From: Burkholderiales bacterium
GTDB lineage: Bacteria; Pseudomonadota; Gammaproteobacteria; Burkholderiales; JAEUOS01
Assembly: GCA_947473125.1 (NCBI GenBank)
Contig: CANJDH010000033.1
Span: forward strand, 1-43,386
DNA: 43,386 nucleotides
Reading direction: 5' to 3'
The position numbers and the translations under genes were made by a program. Under the pieces are notes generated by a model, which made no database searches, was not told the DNA's origin, and was given only the letters and a program-made list of their open reading frames with translations. Below are positions 33,317 to 43,386 of this stretch, one piece after another (position 1 is the stretch's first letter; each line of letters begins with the position of its first letter).

Positions 33317-34342
33317 TCAGTTCTTTTTGGTGTCGATGCCGGCCGCCTTGATGGCAGCCGTCCACTGCGGCCGCTCGGCCGCCATCATGCGCGCGAACTC
33401 CTGGGTGCCGAACGCCACCGGGTCAAAACTCATCTCGTGCATGCGCTTGATGAAGGCCGGGTCCTTGGCGATGGAGAGCAGCTCCTTCTCCCAGATCTCG
33501 ACGATCTCCTTCGGCGTGGCGCTGGGGAGGAACACGCCGTACCAGTTCATGATGTTGAGGTTGGTGAGGCCCGCTTCGGCCAGGGTCGGCACGTTGGGAA
33601 AGGCGTCAAGGCGTGTCGATTCGAGCGTGGCGAGCGCGCGCAGGCGCCCGCTTTGTACATGCTGCTTGACCGCCTCGGCCGACTGCACCAGGAACTGCAC
33701 ATCGTTGCCGAGCAGGCCAACTACCGCCGGCCCGCTGCCTTTGTAAGGCACATGGGTCATCTGGATGCCGGCCTGCGCCGAGACGATCTCGGCGATCAGG
33801 TGCAAAGCGTTGCCCAGGCCCGGCGAGCCCATGTTCAATTTCTTTGGCTCGACTTTCGCCAGCGCGATGAATTCGCGCAGGGTGGTCGCCTTCACGCTGC
33901 TGTTGATGACGATCAGCGCCGGGTTGCGGCCGATCAGGGCTGTACCCACCAGGTCGCGCTGCGCGTTGTAGGGTGGCCGGGGCTCGAAGTTGTCGGCAAT
34001 CGTGATCGGCGTCGGTGGTGTGAACGCCAGCGTATAGCCGTCCGGGGCGGCGCGCACCACGGTCTGGATACCGACTTGCCCGGAGGCGCCGCCAATGTTC
34101 TCGATCAGAACCTGCTGGCCCCAGCGCTGCGTCAGGTGTTGTGCCACCAGGCGGCCGACGATGTCGGGCCCACCCCCGGGCGGCGAGGGCACGATCATGC
34201 GCATCGGGCGCGAAGGGTATTTGCCCTGCGTGAAGCCGTACGGCGCGGCGTCGAGGCCGGCTGCGGCGAGGCCCGCTTTCAGGACATGCCGCCGCCGGCT
34301 GTCGAGGGTCTTGTACTGCGCTGTCATCGGCGGCTCAATCAT
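33317..34342 (-). CDS. Bug/TctC-family receptor with Tat-like signal
   Basis: A 341-residue Bug receptor. Unlike the other two, its N-terminus has a twin-arginine pattern (SRRRHVLKAGLAAAGL), so Tat export is possible. The mature part has YPSRPMRMIVPSPPGGGPDIVGR, IENIGGASGQVGIQTVVRAAPDGY, HVPYKGSGPAVVGLLGNDV and NVPTLAEAGLTNLNIMNWYGV. ATG at 34342 (MIEPPMTAQ) is preferred, with GGAG nine bases upstream; it overlaps the DUF3500 stop by eight bases. Coupling to DUF3500 and an SDR suggests a shared substrate. No TctA or TctB gene is near. Confidence 0.92.
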   Translation of the reverse strand: MIEPPMTAQYKTLDSRRRHVLKAGLAAAGLDAAPYGFTQGKYPSRPMRMIVPSPPGGGPDIVGRLVAQHLTQRWGQQVLIENIGGASGQVGIQTVVRAAPDGYTLAFTPPTPITIADNFEPRPPYNAQRDLVGTALIGRNPALIVINSSVKATTLREFIALAKVEPKKLNMGSPGLGNALHLIAEIVSAQAGIQMTHVPYKGSGPAVVGLLGNDVQFLVQSAEAVKQHVQSGRLRALATLESTRLDAFPNVPTLAEAGLTNLNIMNWYGVFLPSATPKEIVEIWEKELLSIAKDPAFIKRMHEMSFDPVAFGTQEFARMMAAERPQWTAAIKAAGIDTKKN

Positions 34343-35711
34343 GGTGAGGGTCTCCGTGGTCGTGGGAGTGGCCATCGTAATCGGGATGGCTGTGGTTGTG
34401 GTGGGTGTGGCGGCCGCCGTCCTTGTTTTTGTGCTCCGCCGGCGCGCCGTCGACGCCGGGCTGCGCGCCCTCGTGGTGGTCCTGCGCGTAGTGCAGGCGC
34501 AACAGGTCCATGCCGTAGTCGTTGCCGTTCGGCGTGCGCACGATGGTGTGGATGTGGAACTTCGCCGGCAGTTCGTTGGTGAGGAACACGCCCGAGTGGT
34601 GGTCGAATTCGATCATCACCACCGGGCTCTGGATCCGGTAATAAAAGGTGTCGTCCTCGCCGGTGCCGCCGATCCAGCAGAAATGCGTGTCGTCGAGATG
34701 GCGCTCGACCTCGTCGATGCGCGCGGTGCGCGGGCCTTCGGGCAACGGCACAATGTAGGCGTTGACGAGATCAAGCAATTGCCGGCGCTGCACCTTCGAG
34801 AAGCCCGCCGCCGGCGCGCCTTCATAGGGAACCACGCGGTTGTCCTGGAAAGCGCCACCCAGATGCAACTGGTCGGCGCGGTGGCGCCGCGTGGGCGGCA
34901 TGTTGCCGCCGGTGGTCGCGTGGTAAATGATCGCCTGTTCCTGCTGCGCGCTCGAGAGCGCGCGGATCAATGCGAGGCCGCCGTTCTCCTCGTCCTGGAA
35001 CAGGCGCTTTCCCATCAGCGGACCTTCGTCCGCATAGTTGGGCTCGGCACCCATGAAGGCGGGCGAGAGCACCATCTGCCCGCCAATCACCAGGCAATTG
35101 AGCGCAAGGTGGTGGCCGGAGAGCTGCCAGCCCCAGGGCTCTGTCGTGGACGGCGCGCCGAACAGGGTGAAGTTGTAGCTCCACTCGCCCAGCACCTTGG
35201 TGTTCATCGCCAGCTCGCCGAGGAAGTGGTTGAAGCGCATCACGTCGCGCGCCTTCTCGTAACCGGTGCCCGACAGGCTGGCGCGCATCACCTCCAGGAT
35301 CGCCTCGCGCAACGGCAGCGCCACCTCTTCGAGGCGCAAGCCGTAGTGCCATACGTACATCTCGGTGTTGTTCCAGCGCCGCCACTCGCGCGCGTCCAGC
35401 GGCAGCATCAGCGCCTCGCGTTCCACCGGTGTAACCGCCGCGATCAGGCGCACGGTGGCTTCCACCATCGCGGCGGTCGGTGCGCCGTGGTCGCGCCGCT
35501 CGTATAAGCCGGTCAACGGCGTACCGTCGGTGATGACGCCCTTGAACGGCTCGCCGTAGAGGACTTCCCAGGGCTTGAACAGCAGGTCGCGCGGGATCGG
35601 GTTGGCGTAACCCGCCACGCCGTGCTCATGGGCAGTGCGCCCGTGCATCGCCTTGACGCGCGGGTACTCGAGTGTCGGAACGTACGGACGGAAGTCCAGC
35701 GGCTTTTTCAT
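34335..35711 (-). CDS. DUF3500 family protein with histidine-rich C-terminus
   Basis: A 458-residue protein of the uncharacterised DUF3500 family, seen in WNNTEMYVWHYGLRLEEV, TEPWGWQLSGHHLALN, PAFMGAEPNY and DTFYYRIQSPVVMIEFDHHSGVF. The last 25 or so residues are dominated by His and Asp (HTHHNHSHPDYDGHSHDHGD), and the preceding IEFDHHSGVF also carries a histidine pair. Metal binding is therefore likely, either catalytic or for delivery. No signal peptide is visible. Its last eight bases overlap the start of a Bug receptor gene. DUF3500 proteins are often found in catabolic or secretion-linked contexts; the reaction is unknown. Confidence 0.88.
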   Translation of the reverse strand: MKKPLDFRPYVPTLEYPRVKAMHGRTAHEHGVAGYANPIPRDLLFKPWEVLYGEPFKGVITDGTPLTGLYERRDHGAPTAAMVEATVRLIAAVTPVEREALMLPLDAREWRRWNNTEMYVWHYGLRLEEVALPLREAILEVMRASLSGTGYEKARDVMRFNHFLGELAMNTKVLGEWSYNFTLFGAPSTTEPWGWQLSGHHLALNCLVIGGQMVLSPAFMGAEPNYADEGPLMGKRLFQDEENGGLALIRALSSAQQEQAIIYHATTGGNMPPTRRHRADQLHLGGAFQDNRVVPYEGAPAAGFSKVQRRQLLDLVNAYIVPLPEGPRTARIDEVERHLDDTHFCWIGGTGEDDTFYYRIQSPVVMIEFDHHSGVFLTNELPAKFHIHTIVRTPNGNDYGMDLLRLHYAQDHHEGAQPGVDGAPAEHKNKDGGRHTHHNHSHPDYDGHSHDHGDPHHD

Positions 35712-35880: not shown

Positions 35881-36207
35881 CTATGCCTGCCATACGCCGT
35901 AGCCTTTCTCCTGCAGGCTGATGGCGAGCTCGACTTCCATGTCGCGCGCCGCGTCATACGGCATCGGGTTGTAGACCTCGTAAAGCTCCGGCAGCAGGCG
36001 CACCCCGTATTGCGTGACAAAGCGGTTCGCCTGGATGCCGGCCTTGTGCTTGTCGAAGCGCACATCGGGCGACAGCCCGGTCATGCCGACGTAGACGCAG
36101 GGTTTGCCGAAGGCGTAGTCGAGGTTGCATTTGCGAAAGCGCGGTTCGTCGAGCACGTCGAGCGAGAGCAGCACGACATAGACGCTGTGATGGTGGCGGC
36201 GCGGCAT
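35881..36207 (-). CDS. GIY-YIG-like small nuclease-fold protein
   Basis: A 108-residue protein with a GIY-YIG-type start: SVYVVLL, then KPCVYVGMTGLSPDVRFDKHKAG. VYV and VYVG stand for the GIY and YIG halves, with the conserved Arg in DVRFDKHKAG. The C-terminus is ELAISLQEKGYGVWQA, where E in MEVELAISL would align with the family's metal-binding Glu. ATG at 36207 gives MPRRHHHSVYV. It is likely a structure- or repair-related single-domain nuclease, or an uncharacterised GIY-YIG protein. Divergent from the GMC gene with 46 bp between starts. Downstream lies a broken Bug gene. Confidence 0.78.
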   Translation of the reverse strand: MPRRHHHSVYVVLLSLDVLDEPRFRKCNLDYAFGKPCVYVGMTGLSPDVRFDKHKAGIQANRFVTQYGVRLLPELYEVYNPMPYDAARDMEVELAISLQEKGYGVWQA

Positions 36208-36253
36208 GGCACGCAAAGTATAGGGCGCGATGCGCTGCGTTAACATCGCCGCC

Positions 36254-37894
36254 ATGCCTGATCATGACAATGCCTACGACTTTATCGTCGTTGGCGCCGG
36301 CTCGGCCGGCTGCGCCCTTGCCGGGCGCCTTTCCGAAAACCCGCAACACCGCGTACTGCTGCTCGAAGCCGGCATCGACGATCCGTGGATCTGGATCCGG
36401 ATTCCCACCGGGGTCGCCAAGATCGTGGTCGGTGAGCGCGCCATGTGGCGCTTTGACACCGAGCCTTCTCCCGGCGTGAACGGCCGCGCCTTGTTCTGCC
36501 CGCGCGGCAGATGCGTCGGCGGCACCGCCAACATCAACGGCATGTTCTGGGTGCGCGGCGACCCGGCCGAATACGATAACTGGGCGAAGCTCGGCAATGC
36601 CGGCTGGAGCTATGCCGATGTGCTGCCGCTGTTCAAGCGCATGGAAAATTATGCGCAGGGCGACCCGGCGGTGCGCGGCCACGACGGGCCGCTGGTCATT
36701 ACCGAATACGGCCCGCGCGACCCGCTCTCCGACGCCTTCCTCAAGGCCTGCGCACAGGCGGGTATTGCCGAGAATCCGGACACCAATAGCGGCCACTACC
36801 TCGGCGGCGGCCTGATCCAGATGTCGACGCGCAAGGGGCTGCGCTGGAGCGTGCGCGAGGCCTATGTGCGCCCCGCGCAAAAGCGGCCGAACTTCCGGCT
36901 TGTCACGCGCGCGCAGGTGACGCGCCTGCTGTTTGACGGTGAAGGAGACCAGCGGCGCGTCTGCGGCGTTGAGTGGACCCAGGATGGCAAGCGGATGTCG
37001 GCGCGCGCCGTGCGCGAAGTCGCGCTTTGCGCCGGCACGATCCAGTCGCCGCAATTGCTCGAACTATCCGGCATCGGTGACCGCACGCGGCTGGAGGCAT
37101 TGGGCATTGCCGTCAACCGACATCTGCCCGGCGTCGGCGAAAACCTGCGCGACCACCTGCAGGCGCGCCTGATGCTGGAGTTGAAGGGCATCAAGACCCT
37201 CAACGAGATCCTGCCGAGCACGGTCGAGAAAATGAAAATGGGCCTGCGCTGGGTGTTGATGCGCGACGGCCTGATGAGCGTGCCGGGCGCAACGGCACAT
37301 GCCTACACCAAGACGGATCCAGCGCGCGCGCAGCCCGACCTCAAGCTGCAGTTGCACCACCTGTCCAGCCCCGACGAACGTAACCCGAAAAAGCTGGTGC
37401 TCGACCCGTTCCCCGGCTGCTCGATCGGCATGGTGCACCAGCAGCCGCACTCGCGCGGTTCGGTGCATGTTCGGTCGGCCGATCCGCTCAAACAGCCCGA
37501 GATCCACACCAACTATTTGACGCAGGACGAAGACCTGCAGACTTTCCTCAAAGCCATGAAGATCGTGCGCCGCGTCACCCAGCAGCCGGCGCTGGCGCAG
37601 TACGTGGTGCGCGAGTTGCGCCCGGGCCCGGCGATCACCTCAGATGCGACCTTGGAGGACTACCTGCGCGCGACGATTTTTCCCTCGTACCACCCGGTCG
37701 GCACTTGCAAGATGGGTAGCGACGCCATGGCTGTGGTCGACGCGCAGTTGCGCGTGCACGGCGTGGCGGGCCTGCGCGTTGCCGACGCCGCGATCATGCC
37801 GACGATTCCCGCTTCCAACACTAATGCTGCGGCGATCATGATTGGCGAGAAGGCGGCCGACCTGATGCTCGACGCAGCGCGCAACACACCATAA
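36254..37894 (+). CDS. GMC family oxidoreductase (choline dehydrogenase-like)
   Basis: A 546-residue FAD-dependent glucose-methanol-choline oxidoreductase. The N-terminal dinucleotide-binding motif is [19 protein letters not shown] with LLLEAG; the GMC signature follows in [20 protein letters not shown] and in [17 protein letters not shown]. The C-terminal active-site region has [11 protein letters not shown], with the usual His, and [20 protein letters not shown]. Soluble, no signal peptide; ATG at 36254 lies 46 bp from the divergent GIY-YIG start. The GMC gene is first in an operon with a molybdenum hydroxylase subunit, a pseudo-HtrA and a sulfatase, so oxidation of an alcohol side chain of a common substrate is plausible. 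Confidence 0.93.
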
Positions 37895-37901
37895 GTACGC
37901 C

Positions 37902-40220
37902 GTGAACCCAGCACTCCGATCACCCATAGGTCGTCTCGAAGACACCCGTCTGATCACCGGCGCGGGCTGCTACGCCGACGACTGGGCGCTGCCCGATCAG
38001 GCCTGGGCCTGCTTTGTGCGCGCCGACCGCGCCCACGCGCGCATCCTCGGCATCGACACCGAGGCTGCGCAGGCCAGCCCCGGCGTGCTCGCAGTGCTCA
38101 CTGGCAAGGACGTCGACGCTGCCGGGTTTAAGGCCTTGCCCCACTGGATGCCGGTGAAGGGGCGAGACGACATGGCGCTCAACGCGCCGCCGCGACCGGT
38201 ACTGGCCGGCGACACCGTGCGCTTTGTCGGCGAGATCATCGCCATCATAGTGGCCGAGTCGCACCTCGCCGCGCAGGATGCTGCCGAGCAGGTCGCGATC
38301 GACTATGAAGACCTGCCGCCGGTGGTCTCCGCCGTGGCGGCGCTCGATGCGGGCGCCCCGCAACTGCATGCCGGCGCACCCGGCAACCTCGCGTTCGACA
38401 TTGACATCGGCAACGTGGCGGCCGCCGACGTGGCAATGGATCAGGCCCACAAGGTGGTGCGCCTCTCGGTCGAGATTCCGCGCCTGGTTGCGAACCCGAT
38501 GGAGCCGCGCAGCTGCATGGGCGCGTACGACGTCGCGACACAAAGCTACACGCTCTACGCTTGCATCCAGGGTGCGTTCCACATGCGCCTGCAACTGGCG
38601 CAGGTGCTGCCGGTGCCGATCGAGCAACTCCGCGTGGTGGCGCAGGATGTCGGCGGCAGCTTTGGGGTGCGCAGCAATGCCTACCCGGAGGATTGCGCCG
38701 TGCTGCTCGCGGCGCGGCACACCGGGCGGCCGGTGAAGTGGCAGGGCACGCGTTCCGAGTCGTTCGTGTCCGACGAACAGGGGCGCGATGTGGTGGTTGA
38801 TGGTGAACTCGCGCTCGATGCGAGCGGGCGCATGCTCGGCGTGCGCTTCTCATTCACCGGCAACCTCGGCGCTTACCCGACCATGATCGGACCGGTGGTC
38901 AACACGCTGGGTGCGACCGCATGCCTCACCGGCCCCTACGACCTGCCGGCGGCGCATGCGCGGATGCGCATCGCCTATACCAACACGGTGCCGACGGCCG
39001 CCTACCGCGGCGCCGGCCGGCCCCTGATGTCGTACGCGATCGAGCGCCTGGTGGACCAGGCGGCGCTCGAAACCGGCATCGACCCGGTGGCCTTGCGCGC
39101 GCGCAACTTCATTGCCCGCGACGCGTTTCCGTACAAGCTAGCCAACAACACGGTGTACGACTGCGGCGATTTCAACCTGGCACTCGAACGTGCGGTGGCG
39201 GCTGCGGACTGGAGCGGCTTCGAAGCACGGCGTGCCGCGGCGCGTACGCGCGGCCGCCTGCGCGGCATCGGCATGGCGAGCTTTGTCGAGGCGACCAACG
39301 CCGGCTTTTTGCCGGCCGATCATGTGCAGATCCGCTTCACGCCGCAAGGCGAGGTGCTGCTGCATGCCGCCACCCAATCGAACGGGCAGGGCCATGAAAC
39401 CAGCTTCGCGCAGGTGGTGAGCGGCGTGCTCGGGGTGCCGATGGCGAAGATTCACCTGGCCACCTCGACCCTGGCCGCACCGCAACTGGAGGGCAATCTC
39501 ACGTCGGGCTCGCGCTCGCTGGCCTCGCTCGGCAGCGTGCTGATGAAAGCCGCAGAGCAGGTGGTAGAGACCGGGAAACCGTTGGTGGGAGCGGCCCTTG
39601 GCGTATCTCCCGCGTCCGTATCGTTTTCCGGCGGTGTGTATTTCACGCCCTCCGGCGCAAGCTTGTCGCTGGCCGACCTCGCCGCGCGCCACGCCAGCGA
39701 CACACCGCATCCGCTCTCGGTGGACTTCAGCGGCCGCTTCGGCGCCACCTTCCCCAACGGCTGCCATATCGCCGAAGTCGAGATCGACCCCGATTCGGGC
39801 GAGGTGTCGCTCGCCTCCTACGTCGCCTGCGACGACGTCGGCAACATCATCAATCACCAGATCGTTGCTGGCCAGGTGCATGGTGGCCTCGCGCAAGGCC
39901 TCGGCGAAGCGTTTTCCGAAGTCGCAATCTACGACCCGGCGACCGGGCAATTGCTGGCTGGCAGCTTCCTCGATTACGCGATGCCGCGCGCCGGCTGGGC
40001 CGATTCGAACAGCACGCTGACCCTGGTCGAATCGCCGGTGCCGACCCAGGTCAACCCGCTCGGTGCCAAGGGCGCCGGCGAGGCCGGCGTCACCGGCGGC
40101 TTGCCGGCGCTGATGAATGCGCTGTGCGACGCCTTGCGCCCCGCCGGCGTGACGCATTTCGACATGCCGGCCACGTCGGCGCGCGTCTGGCGCGCACTGC
40201 AGGCAGCGCGTCCGGCCTGA
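37902..40220 (+). CDS. Xanthine dehydrogenase family, molybdopterin-binding large subunit
   Basis: A 772-residue molybdenum hydroxylase large subunit (aldehyde oxidase/CoxL type). It shows [19 protein letters not shown], the MoCo-binding [15 protein letters not shown] near residue 250, [20 protein letters not shown] (so not the CO dehydrogenase AYRCSFR form), [15 protein letters not shown], and the C-terminal [15 protein letters not shown] with the catalytic Glu. It starts with GTG at 37902, seven bases after the GMC stop. Neither the 2Fe-2S small subunit nor the FAD medium subunit is encoded nearby, so it must use partners made elsewhere or act with the GMC flavoprotein. It hydroxylates an N-heterocycle or aldehyde in the known family. 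Confidence 0.92.
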
Positions 40221-40257: not shown

Positions 40258-41232
40258 ATGTCTGAACCCCAACAATGGGCCTTCCCCGAGTCGCTGCAAC
40301 CGAAGGCCGACGAAACGCAGTTTGACCTGGCGCGCGCGATGGACGCCGTGGTGCTGGTGCGCACAGAAATTCCCGAAGACGGCTTTACCGCCGGCATTCT
40401 CGGCACCGAGCGGGGCGGCTATGGCGTGGTGATCCGCGCCGACGGCCTGGTGCTGACCATCGGCTACCTGATCACCGAAGCCTCGCAAATCTGGCTCACC
40501 ACCAATCGCGGCAATGTGGTGGCCGGCTATGCGCTGGCCTACGACCAGGCCACCGGTTTCGGCCTGATCCAGCCGCTCGGCAAACTCGATGCGCCGCATC
40601 TCAATTTCGGTGTGGTGGCCGACGTGAACGTCGGCGATTCGGCGTTTGTGCTGGGCCATGGCGGCCGCGCCCACGCCCTCAAGACGCGGCTGATCGGCAA
40701 ACGGGAATTCGCCGGCTACTGGGAATACGTGCTCGACGAAGCCCTGTTTACCGCGCCGGCGCACCCGCAGTGGGGTGGTGCCGCGTTGCTCGACGCACAG
40801 GGCGACCTGATCGGCATCGGCTCGCTGCTGGTGCAGCAGGAGGTCAAGGGCGAGTCGATTCACGTGAACATGTTCGTGCCGATCGAGCTGCTCACGCCGA
40901 TCCTCGATGCGATACTGAAAACCGGGTGCAGCCCGTATCCAGCACACCCGTGGCTGGGCATGTACACGCAGGACCCGGAAGGCAAGCTGGTGGTCGGCAA
41001 TGTTTCGCCAGGTGGCCCGGCCGAGCGTGCCGGTGTGCAGGCTGGCGACATGGTGCTGGGGGTGGGTACCGAGCGCGTGCACGGGCTGGCCGAACTGTTC
41101 CGCGCGATCTGGAAGCTCGGTTCAGCGGGCGTCGACGTACCGCTCACCCTGGCGCGCGCCGGCGACGTGCTGCGCATCACGGTCAAGTCCGCCGACCGCA
41201 ATGACTTTCTCAAAAAGCCTAACCTCCATTGA
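40258..41232 (+). CDS. HtrA-like PDZ protein, catalytically inactive (pseudoprotease)
   Basis: A 324-residue protein with the architecture of an S1C/HtrA protease: a trypsin-like domain (about 25-215) and a C-terminal PDZ domain (about 230-315; GNVSPGGPAERAGVQAGDMVLGVG). The catalytic positions are all replaced: His in the usual TNxHV is Tyr70 in LTIGYLI, Asp of DxxTD is Gly100 in YDQATGFGLI, and Ser of GNSGG is Trp172 in PQWGGAALL. The fold is kept, so it likely binds protein or peptide without cutting it. No signal peptide, hence cytoplasmic. It lies between the Mo-hydroxylase subunit and a sulfatase and may help mature or scaffold them (inference). Stop and sulfatase start overlap. Confidence 0.88.
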   Translation: MSEPQQWAFPESLQPKADETQFDLARAMDAVVLVRTEIPEDGFTAGILGTERGGYGVVIRADGLVLTIGYLITEASQIWLTTNRGNVVAGYALAYDQATGFGLIQPLGKLDAPHLNFGVVADVNVGDSAFVLGHGGRAHALKTRLIGKREFAGYWEYVLDEALFTAPAHPQWGGAALLDAQGDLIGIGSLLVQQEVKGESIHVNMFVPIELLTPILDAILKTGCSPYPAHPWLGMYTQDPEGKLVVGNVSPGGPAERAGVQAGDMVLGVGTERVHGLAELFRAIWKLGSAGVDVPLTLARAGDVLRITVKSADRNDFLKKPNLH

Positions 41233-42554
41233 CCAAGCCCAATTTCATTTTCATCCTCGCCGATGACCTCGGCTACGCCGACCTCGGCTGCGCCGGCGCA
41301 CGAGACTCCGGTTTGCCCGGCGGCGTGTCGCCGAACCTCGACCGCATGGCGCGTGAAGGCTTGTACTTCACCCAGGGCTATTCGAATTCGCCGGTGTGCT
41401 CGCCGACGCGCTTTGCGCTCGCCACCGGGCGCTACCAGTACCGCCTGCGCGGCGCCGCCGAAGAGCCGCTCTCGGGTGTTGCCAAGGGCAACCCGATCCT
41501 CGGCCTGCCGCCGGAACACCCGACGCTGCCGTCATTGCTGCGCGCTGCCGGCTATGCCACCGCGCTGGTCGGCAAGTGGCACCTCGGGTTCCGCCCACAC
41601 TTCGGCCCCGAGAAAAGCGGCTACGACAGCTTCTTCGGGCCGATGGCGGGCGGCGTCGATTACTTCTCGCATTGCTCGCGCGGCAACGACCACGACCTCT
41701 GGGAAAACGACGTCGAAGTGCATCGCGAGGGCTACCTGACAGACCTTCTGTCGGAGCGTGCGGTGCAGTTCGTGAAGGAGAAAAAAGACCAACCCTTCAT
41801 GCTGTCGCTGCACTACACGGCGCCGCACTGGCCGTGGCTGACGCGCGACGACGGCGATGAATCGAAGCGCATCAACGGCGCGATTGCGCATGTCGACGGC
41901 GGCAACATCCACACTTACCGGCGCATGATCCACCACATGGACGAAGGCATCGGCCAGATCATGGCCGCGTTGAAGGAAACCGGCGCCGACCGCAACACCC
42001 TGATCGTGTTTACCAGCGACAACGGCGGCGAACGCTTTTCCGACAACTGGCCTTTTATCGGGCAGAAAATGGATCTGCTCGAAGGTGGTATTCGCGTGCC
42101 GCTGCTGGCTCGCTGGCCGGCGCAGATCACGCCCGGCGGCCGCACCGCAACACCGGCGATCACGATGGACTGGGTCGCCACCATGCTTGATGCCGCAGGC
42201 GTGGCGCCGCAGGCCGACCATCCGCTTGACGGCGTGAGCCTCATGCCCCTGTTCAGCGATGCCGCGTGGCGCCCGGCGCGCAATCTCTACTGGCGCATGG
42301 CGTATCGCAAACAGCGCGCGCTGCTGTCGGGGTCGGGGCAATGGAAATACCTGCGCATCGAAGACAACGATTACCTGTTTGACCTCAACCGCGACGAGCG
42401 CGAACGCGCCAACCAGGCAGCGCGCGAGCCGGATCGCCTTGCGGCGATGCGTGCCGAGTGGGAGCAGTGGGCCGCGACCATGCCGGGCATTCCCTCCGAC
42501 GCAAAAGTATCGCTGGTGTTCGGCGAGGCGCAGATGCCGCGCCCGGGACACTAG
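41229..42554 (+). CDS. Cys-type sulfatase, no signal peptide
   Basis: A 441-residue arylsulfatase-family enzyme. Metal and active-site motifs are IFILADDLGYAD (Asp12-13), the formylglycine signature CSPTR at residues 57-61, GKWHLG near 115, and FTSDNGGE near 260. Cys57 must be oxidised to formylglycine by an FGE-type or anSME enzyme; neither is in the window. The protein starts TTG (41229), overlapping the pseudoprotease stop as TTGA, and begins directly with the catalytic domain, so there is no signal peptide and the enzyme is probably cytoplasmic. It would hydrolyse a sulfate ester or sulfonate-like substrate already inside the cell. Confidence 0.92.
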   Translation: MTKPNFIFILADDLGYADLGCAGARDSGLPGGVSPNLDRMAREGLYFTQGYSNSPVCSPTRFALATGRYQYRLRGAAEEPLSGVAKGNPILGLPPEHPTLPSLLRAAGYATALVGKWHLGFRPHFGPEKSGYDSFFGPMAGGVDYFSHCSRGNDHDLWENDVEVHREGYLTDLLSERAVQFVKEKKDQPFMLSLHYTAPHWPWLTRDDGDESKRINGAIAHVDGGNIHTYRRMIHHMDEGIGQIMAALKETGADRNTLIVFTSDNGGERFSDNWPFIGQKMDLLEGGIRVPLLARWPAQITPGGRTATPAITMDWVATMLDAAGVAPQADHPLDGVSLMPLFSDAAWRPARNLYWRMAYRKQRALLSGSGQWKYLRIEDNDYLFDLNRDERERANQAAREPDRLAAMRAEWEQWAATMPGIPSDAKVSLVFGEAQMPRPGH

Positions 42555-42692: not shown

Positions 42693-43386
42693 ATGCCGAC
42701 CAACGAAGCCTTCTCCCGCGTTGTCATTGATCGCCAGCTTGCAGACCAGGGCTGGGAGGTCGAGAACCCCAACGCCGTCCGGTATGAATACCCCATGGCG
42801 GATGGCACGCGCGCCGACTACGTGCTGTGCAATCGGCATGGCCACTCCATGGCGGTGATCGAGGCCAAGCGCTTCTCGGTGAACCCGGGCGATGCCGCCG
42901 AACAGGCCCGCGCCTACGCCAGACAGCTCAACGTGCCCTACATATTCCTCGCCAATGGCGCGGAAATTAGATTTTGGGAGTGGGAGACCGAAGCTTTCCC
43001 TCGCCTGGTCAAAACGTTTTTCAAGCAAGACGACCTTGAGCGTCGCTTCGCGACCCGCCAGTTGAAGCGTGACCCGATGACGGTTGACATCGACAAACGC
43101 ATTGTCGAGCGCGATTACCAGAAGGATTGCATCAATACCCTGTGCAGTGAAATGGCCACCGGGCGTCGCAAGCTTCTCGTTGAAATGGCCACCGGCACCG
43201 GCAAGACCCGCACCGCTGCCGCCTTCATCAAGCGCCTGTTCGAAGCGCATGCGATCACGCGCGTGCTGTTTCTGGTGGACCGCATTCCGCTTGCCAAGCA
43301 AACCGAAGATGCCTTTGCCGAATTTTTGCCCGACTACCCGGCCTACGTGCTGCGTGCGGGTCGCAGGTTTCAGGACGAGAAGCGCA
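42693..43386 (+). CDS. hsdR: Type I restriction endonuclease subunit R (3' partial)
   Basis: The first 231 residues of an HsdR-like protein that runs off the right edge. The N-terminal nuclease domain has RADYVLCNRHGHSMAVIEAK, a PD-(D/E)xK pattern (Asp, then E-x-K) near residues 38-58. A linker follows, then RDYQKDCINTLC (Q-motif-like) and the helicase Walker A MATGTGKTRTAAAF near residue 168, then VLFLVDRIPLAKQ. In a type I complex HsdR translocates DNA and cleaves it after HsdM/HsdS recognition. ATG at 42693 is the first start in frame, 138 bp after the sulfatase stop. Its hsdM and hsdS genes would lie to the right. An isolated DEAD/DEAH helicase-nuclease is the alternative. Confidence 0.85.
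   Translation, partial: MPTNEAFSRVVIDRQLADQGWEVENPNAVRYEYPMADGTRADYVLCNRHGHSMAVIEAKRFSVNPGDAAEQARAYARQLNVPYIFLANGAEIRFWEWETEAFPRLVKTFFKQDDLERRFATRQLKRDPMTVDIDKRIVERDYQKDCINTLCSEMATGRRKLLVEMATGTGKTRTAAAFIKRLFEAHAITRVLFLVDRIPLAKQTEDAFAEFLPDYPAYVLRAGRRFQDEKR

Follow-up and report, generated by a model that had tools for sequence, protein, structure and literature searches.

A large, strongly conserved bacterial family of predicted HtrA-fold pseudoproteases

One gene in a 43,386-nucleotide stretch of DNA from a Burkholderiales bacterium (contig CANJDH010000033.1 of assembly GCA_947473125.1; the whole stretch is referred to here as the window) encodes a protein that resembles an HtrA protease and carries other residues at the catalytic positions, and we asked what such a protein, here called pseudo-HtrA (Table 1), could do. 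An earlier note on this DNA had described a trypsin-like plus PDZ layout, which was borne out by Pfam and by an AlphaFold2 model: the Trypsin_2 match (residues 54-187) scored 49.5 bits relative to a cut-off of 27.6, a single PDZ region was found both by Pfam and in the model, and all 80 of the 80 A3 members had both Trypsin_2 and PDZ_2. The protein also matched 13 NCBIfam models, all with scores far under their cut-offs; among these the DegP/DegS/HhoA equivalog and subfamily models gave a best score of 73.2 bits vs a curated cut-off of 416.2.

Table 1. Coordinates of pseudo-HtrA, its domains and motifs, and its two adjoining genes in the window
Feature	Position	Strand	Remarks
Mo-hydroxylase large subunit, upstream	37902..40220	+	neighbour not conserved
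pseudo-HtrA gene, set A	40258..41232	+	324 aa, ATG start, signal peptide not seen
Trypsin-like domain, residues 54-187	40417..40818	+	Pfam Trypsin_2; HtrA fold by Foldseek and VIA-align
Motif T-I-G-Y-L-I-T-E (67-74)	40456..40479	+	Tyr70 in catalytic-His column, Y in 170/170; Glu74, E in 170/170
Motif D-Q-A-T-G-F-G (96-102)	40543..40563	+	Gly100 in catalytic-Asp column, G in 170/170
Motif F-A-G-Y-W-E-Y (151-157)	40708..40728	+	family-specific; F151, W155, E156 and Y157 fixed in 170 rows
Altered L1 loop H-P-Q-W-G-G-A (169-175)	40762..40782	+	Gln171 = first Gly column of GNSGG, Trp172 = Asn column, Gly173 = Ser column
PDZ domain, residues 232-310	40951..41187	+	Pfam PDZ_2, 42.9 bits vs cut-off 27
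C-terminal tail K-P-N-L-H (320-324)	41215..41229	+	kept in set A only; last three residues pLDDT <50
Sulfatase ORF	41229..42554	+	overlaps pseudo-HtrA stop; neighbour not conserved

The structure prediction and superposition proposed in the earlier note recovered the HtrA/Deg fold, with Deg1 and HtrA1 as best matches. The model, built from an alignment of the window protein with the contig-scan loci (79 of the 80, omitting L039, whose contig has the same length as that of L007), has the HtrA fold with a mean pLDDT of 93.7 and a pTM of 0.91, and its stretches with pLDDT <50 are residues 1-5 and 322-324. By VIA-align the best match was Deg1 (3qo6_B; Z 25.4, rmsd 5.7 A over 282 residues), and the protease part matched HtrA1 (3tjo_D; Z 22.6, 2.5 A over 179 residues). 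Among the Foldseek and VIA-align matches listed, all were HtrA/Deg proteases.

For the catalytic positions, the earlier note had put Tyr70, Gly100 and Trp172 in the place of His, Asp and Ser. The first two assignments held in MAFFT alignments with two triad-bearing HtrA-type proteases from the host genome (L003 and L004) and by hhalign with L003, but the third was one residue off: the catalytic Ser fell on residue 173, a Gly, by hhalign, by MAFFT and in 18 of 18 triad-bearing matches, while Trp172 aligned with the Asn of GNSGG. By alignment the window protein has neither the His-Asp-Ser triad (Y70, G100 and G173 stand there) nor the GNSGG loop with its oxyanion Gly (Q171-W172-G173-G174); the first Gly of GNSGG is presumably the oxyanion-hole Gly, at chymotrypsin position 193. 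Because His and Asp are gone and a non-Gly residue stands in the oxyanion-hole column, acyl-enzyme chemistry is not to be expected from what is known of the family, and acyl-enzyme formation would be ruled out in the window protein. The accessible part of the MamO paper makes the same steric argument for position 193 (PMC4794232). Across the 170 family rows that we aligned, column 171 is non-Gly in 169 and column 173 holds Gly in 114, Ser in 43, Ala in 10 and Gln in 3, and every one of the 43 Ser-173 rows carries Tyr in the His column and Gly in the Asp column. The 18 nearest matches outside the family, fetched from 17 genomes scoring 9.9e-29 to 8.7e-26, all keep His, Asp and Ser at columns 70, 100 and 173. 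An R-P-W-L-G motif, which we take to be the carboxylate-binding loop, precedes the PDZ domain in most rows and reads H-P-W-L-G in the window protein, position 230 being Arg in 155 of the 170 rows.

The 170 rows comprise 130 of a set A, which includes the window protein, and 40 of a set B; two genes were counted twice, leaving 168 genes. Eight residues are fixed in all of them (Tyr70, Glu74, Gly100, Phe151, Trp155, Glu156, Tyr157 and Ser189). Five of these, Y70, E74, W155, E156 and Y157, differ in the three aligned triad-bearing sequences and are family-specific, and S189 is S/T in those three. Since the contig scan was seeded on the peptides EFAG[YP]WEY and PAHP[QH]W[GS]G, the rows from it are biased to these motifs; in the 90 rows found without the seed peptides Tyr70, Glu74, Gly100, Trp155, Glu156, Tyr157 and Ser189 were fixed too, and Trp172 was Trp in 50 of 50 set-A rows but in only 20 of 40 set-B rows.

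Within the order, 40 of the 150 genomes searched (one of them that of the window) had a match at E <= 1e-20. Among 398 genomes of the phylum, with the five best candidates scored per genome and a limit of 1e-25, 35 (own genome included) matched at E 1.1e-84 or better; the next match was at 9.9e-29, and 17 genomes followed this gap at 9.9e-29 to 8.7e-26. Relatives are encoded in at least 565 of the 593 candidate stretches listed from one genome collection (tblastn, E <= 1e-3; a partly checked list), and 80 contig-scan loci were kept for analysis. A single scan of viral sequences found no relative of pseudo-HtrA. We found no description of the family in the literature searched, whose scope left out most subscription journals and all of bioRxiv; as far as its accessible part goes, a 2008 survey reported 2 inactive homologues among 247 trypsin-like proteins (PMC2605481). 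Judged from its sequences, this is a large, strongly conserved family of predicted bacterial HtrA-fold pseudoproteases, real and widespread, for which we found no description. Three copies on rhizobial plasmids are annotated 'S1C family serine protease', and 'signal protein PDZ' is the label of another listed copy. Should the family prove non-proteolytic, such labels are misleading, and a widespread, conserved proteobacterial pseudoenzyme awaits a function.

The gene does not appear to be decaying, as the earlier note had argued from the preserved strands and PDZ domain, because the model of its fold is confident, Tyr70 and Gly100 are fixed in 170/170 rows and dN/dS is low. By a simple Nei-Gojobori count, dN/dS was 0.03-0.15 in the 30 closest of 62 pairs of A3 rows >78% identical, so that close pairs are under purifying selection. 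Alignment and model together support an intact-looking non-protease rather than a single decayed gene, and a specific role for the former active-site region is suggested by the positions that are invariant in this family but not in active HtrAs.

The two sets were split by score, set A being the rows with E <1e-120 to the A3 profile plus the A1 and A3 rows. Set A is 46-84% identical to the query and set B 33-46%. The earlier note had reported no signal peptide in the window protein, and we agree: its homologues share the start Met and hydropathy shows no hydrophobic N-terminus, a call that rests on the homologue starts and on a Kyte-Doolittle threshold (mean 1.6 in a 12-residue stretch within the first 26). 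From its sequence the window pseudo-HtrA is probably cytoplasmic. By the same hydropathy threshold none of the 130 set-A rows has a signal-like N-terminus, and in 3 of 38 set-A loci (L140, L121 and L157; two genes, one counted twice) a hydrophobic stretch lies ahead of the presumed start, within the open frame. In set B, 34 of 40 rows pass the threshold when the 60 residues preceding the match are scored, the rows below it being L149, L194, L152, L176, L178 and L187. The set-A tail has Pro321 in 129 of 130 rows and a terminal His or Gln in 128 of 130.

On a tree with 45 of the 130 set-A rows, set B groups with 99/99 support. Set A was rejected as a clade, as the tree rooted on three triad-bearing proteases, with its root on a long outgroup branch, nests set B within it. 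Of the 40 carrier genomes in the order, 12 have both sets, 12 only A and 16 only B; each set is found alone, and therefore neither depends on the other. The host genome holds one gene from each set. Its set-B relative (G000:C68:5600-6493; L002, L153) is 41% identical, has a signal-like N-terminus and shows the same Tyr and Gly substitutions, but has Asp-His-Ser-Gly in the L1 loop; the neighbours of this gene gave no obvious partner. A further set-B copy, L148, lies in a 1.2-Mb single-contig genome (G493) near peroxiredoxin, rhodanese and sulphur-transport genes, and no obvious partner was found among its neighbours. A genome that carries both kinds of relative, one with a signal-like N-terminus and one lacking it, is a natural setting for comparing the two.

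The titles of three metagenome bins (L037, L045 and L062) name Bordetella parapertussis or Klebsiella pneumoniae. The protein of L045, however, shares 96% identity with that of L047, a Lake Baikal betaproteobacterium bin, and L062 lies among betaproteobacterial bins on the tree; the titles of the three bins may be mislabelled.

On sequence and model together we think it reasonably likely that the window protein is a cytoplasmic HtrA-fold pseudoprotease that binds peptides without proteolysis, as an adaptor or chaperone with a PDZ domain and an active-site cleft put to new use. We arrive at this reading because the triad is gone while the PDZ domain and, in most rows, R-P-W-L-G are kept, and a scaffold or chaperone is partly the default reading for an HtrA fold without its triad. 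In such a mechanism the PDZ groove would hold a protein tail, and the old active-site cleft, rebuilt around Tyr70, Glu74, Trp155-Glu156-Tyr157 and Ser189, would take up a ligand or an unfolded segment. The protein would then be an adaptor or chaperone that does not cut, perhaps as an HtrA-like trimer, and the exported set B would have a comparable task outside the cytoplasm. Two points count against this reading: the window protein has His at position 230, where most rows have Arg, and Ser is kept at the nucleophile column in 43 of the 170 rows, members that may therefore carry out some non-proteolytic chemistry. A wider proposal, which we put forward tentatively and with more doubt than belief, is that one early loss of protease activity founded a large proteobacterial family, partly cytoplasmic, whose cleft was rebuilt around Tyr70, Glu74, Trp-Glu-Tyr and Ser189 as a conserved site for a ligand or client. 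If true, this would be an HtrA machine inside the cytoplasm that works without cutting.

The same residues could instead form a new ligand, metal or catalytic centre, making the protein a sensor or a different enzyme, a reading that we regard as rather unlikely. It draws on the fixation of Y70, E74, W155, E156 and Y157 in 170/170 rows, with other residues in the three triad-bearing sequences, on the fixed S189, and on the precedent of MamO, which, in the accessible part of its description, binds transition metals via a surface di-histidine (PMC4794232). However, no His is invariant over the 170 rows, so that a conserved di-histidine as in MamO is not seen (H169 alone is invariant over the 130 set-A rows), and an enzyme-like operon partner does not recur.

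The idea of a pseudo-subunit that enters mixed oligomers with an active HtrA and regulates it is made plausible by plant Deg5/Deg8 from HtrA biology, but seems to us improbable: these bacteria generally export their HtrA proteases, whereas set A has no signal peptide and, not being exported, would not meet an active HtrA, a meeting that is possible for set B. MamO would be a parallel, as it activates MamE-dependent proteolysis according to the accessible part of its description.

We consider it very improbable that other residues supply a triad and that the protein has remained a protease. The candidates would be H169, invariant in the 130 set-A rows, with D96 and S189, present in all 170, and Ser does stand at column 173 in 43 of the 170 rows; but H169 is kept in 1 of 40 set-B rows, D96 also occurs in the three triad-bearing sequences, which have their triad Asp as well, and is thus not a replacement Asp, S189 lies by alignment and model in the strand after the L1 loop, and the first Gly of GNSGG is replaced in all rows but one. 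We rejected the H169/D96/S189 triad on conservation in the sequences.

The earlier note had suggested, from the absence of a signal peptide and the translational coupling to the sulfatase, that the protein serves one of its two neighbours, the sulfatase or the Mo-hydroxylase subunit, as a scaffold or chaperone. The co-directional genes, the 37 bases that separate the Mo-hydroxylase gene from pseudo-HtrA and the sulfatase stop/start overlap speak for this, but it is hardly credible, as a sulfatase was found at 0/129 other family loci and a Mo-hydroxylase relative at 2/129 (L039 and L085), none adjacent and both >5 kb from the gene. The coupling to the sulfatase does stand here, where the pseudo-HtrA stop overlaps a TTG start at 41229, but it was seen in the window's genome only. 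These counts come from tblastn searches (E <= 1e-15) with the window's neighbours at the 129 loci, of which 95 have at least 3 kb on both sides and 81 have 5 kb; a neighbour can be missed because the other 34 have <3 kb on at least one side. The co-conservation survey that the earlier note proposed found the homologues scattered without these neighbours, an outcome it had itself named as contrary to its suggestion, and on a 7.9-kb contig the nearest homologue found (L035, 84% identical) is flanked by other genes.

The same searches found a GMC oxidoreductase at 3/129 loci, DUF3500 at 0/129 and TctC-type receptors at 36/129. In L043, from the same family as the host genome, the gene directly upstream of pseudo-HtrA encodes a GMC oxidoreductase with 64% identity to that of the window, and a local link with GMC genes is therefore possible. 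TctC receptors were dismissed as a partner, since such genes are numerous here (three in the window). All-against-all clustering of neighbours gave no recurrent operon partner: in the 71 loci that could be used, the most frequent co-directional cluster close to the gene occurred four times upstream and three times downstream. The crude GC-frame gene caller used had unreliable starts and missed the target in 9 of 80 loci. The 20 neighbour-cluster representatives scanned included acyl-CoA ligases, ABC transporters, RND pumps, CobW, methionine synthase and regulators, and the three rhizobial plasmid copies sit among unrelated genes, in a gene table that is incomplete. Domain fusions were also set aside, as eight long frames look by eye like upstream frame extensions. 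Such diverse neighbours favour no particular client, and the client of pseudo-HtrA is probably not encoded next door.

Elsewhere in the window, positions 34335-35711 (-) encode a DUF3500 protein with a His-rich C-terminal tail, adjoining a TctC receptor. A 124-residue ORF at 35881-36255 (-) had no Pfam match even at E 1 and no relative at the 129 family loci (0/129); by eye it resembles a GIY-YIG type domain. The window ends (42693-43385) inside an apparent type I restriction R-subunit gene with Pfam ResIII and HSDR_N matches.

How does a non-cutting adaptor or chaperone compare with known systems? Like the HtrA/Deg proteases (MEROPS S1C: DegP, DegQ, DegS, Deg1 and HtrA1), pseudo-HtrA has a trypsin-like domain with at least one PDZ domain, a model with the HtrA fold and profile matches over approximately residues 53-310; unlike them it has no His-Asp-Ser triad, a non-Gly residue at the first Gly of GNSGG and, in set A, no signal peptide that we could see. 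Of the features of S1C, the chymotrypsin-fold domain followed by PDZ is present, and the triad, the GNSGG Gly and, by hydropathy, an export signal are absent. The predicted fold and, by profile, the descent are shared with the HtrA proteases, and the defining triad is absent. In an A3-profile search MamO was absent from the best 60 of 330 chains, an absence that is compatible with kinship.

MamO and PflC are both HtrA relatives without protease activity in structural or regulatory roles, according to the accessible parts of their descriptions (PMC4794232, PMC12222027), on which the following comparison draws. MamO shares with pseudo-HtrA an HtrA-type fold, the loss of protease activity, a non-Gly residue at position 193 (Q171 here) and a bulky L1 Trp. 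The MamO Trp is at position 192, whereas by alignment Pro170 occupies that column here and Trp172 lies two columns on; in MamO a threonine replaces the Ser nucleophile, whereas here a Trp stands in the Asn column of GNSGG and His and Asp are gone. MamO needs a TauE domain for MamE activation and is placed by its authors in magnetotactic bacteria (PMC4794232), whereas the pseudo-HtrA family is widespread. PflC, of the Campylobacter flagellar medial disk, likewise puts an HtrA architecture without the triad to structural use (PMC12222027), but it is periplasmic, has two PDZ-like domains to the window protein's one, has lost its His loop and belongs to one known machine. By analogy, these likenesses suggest that pseudo-HtrA works most like MamO and PflC.
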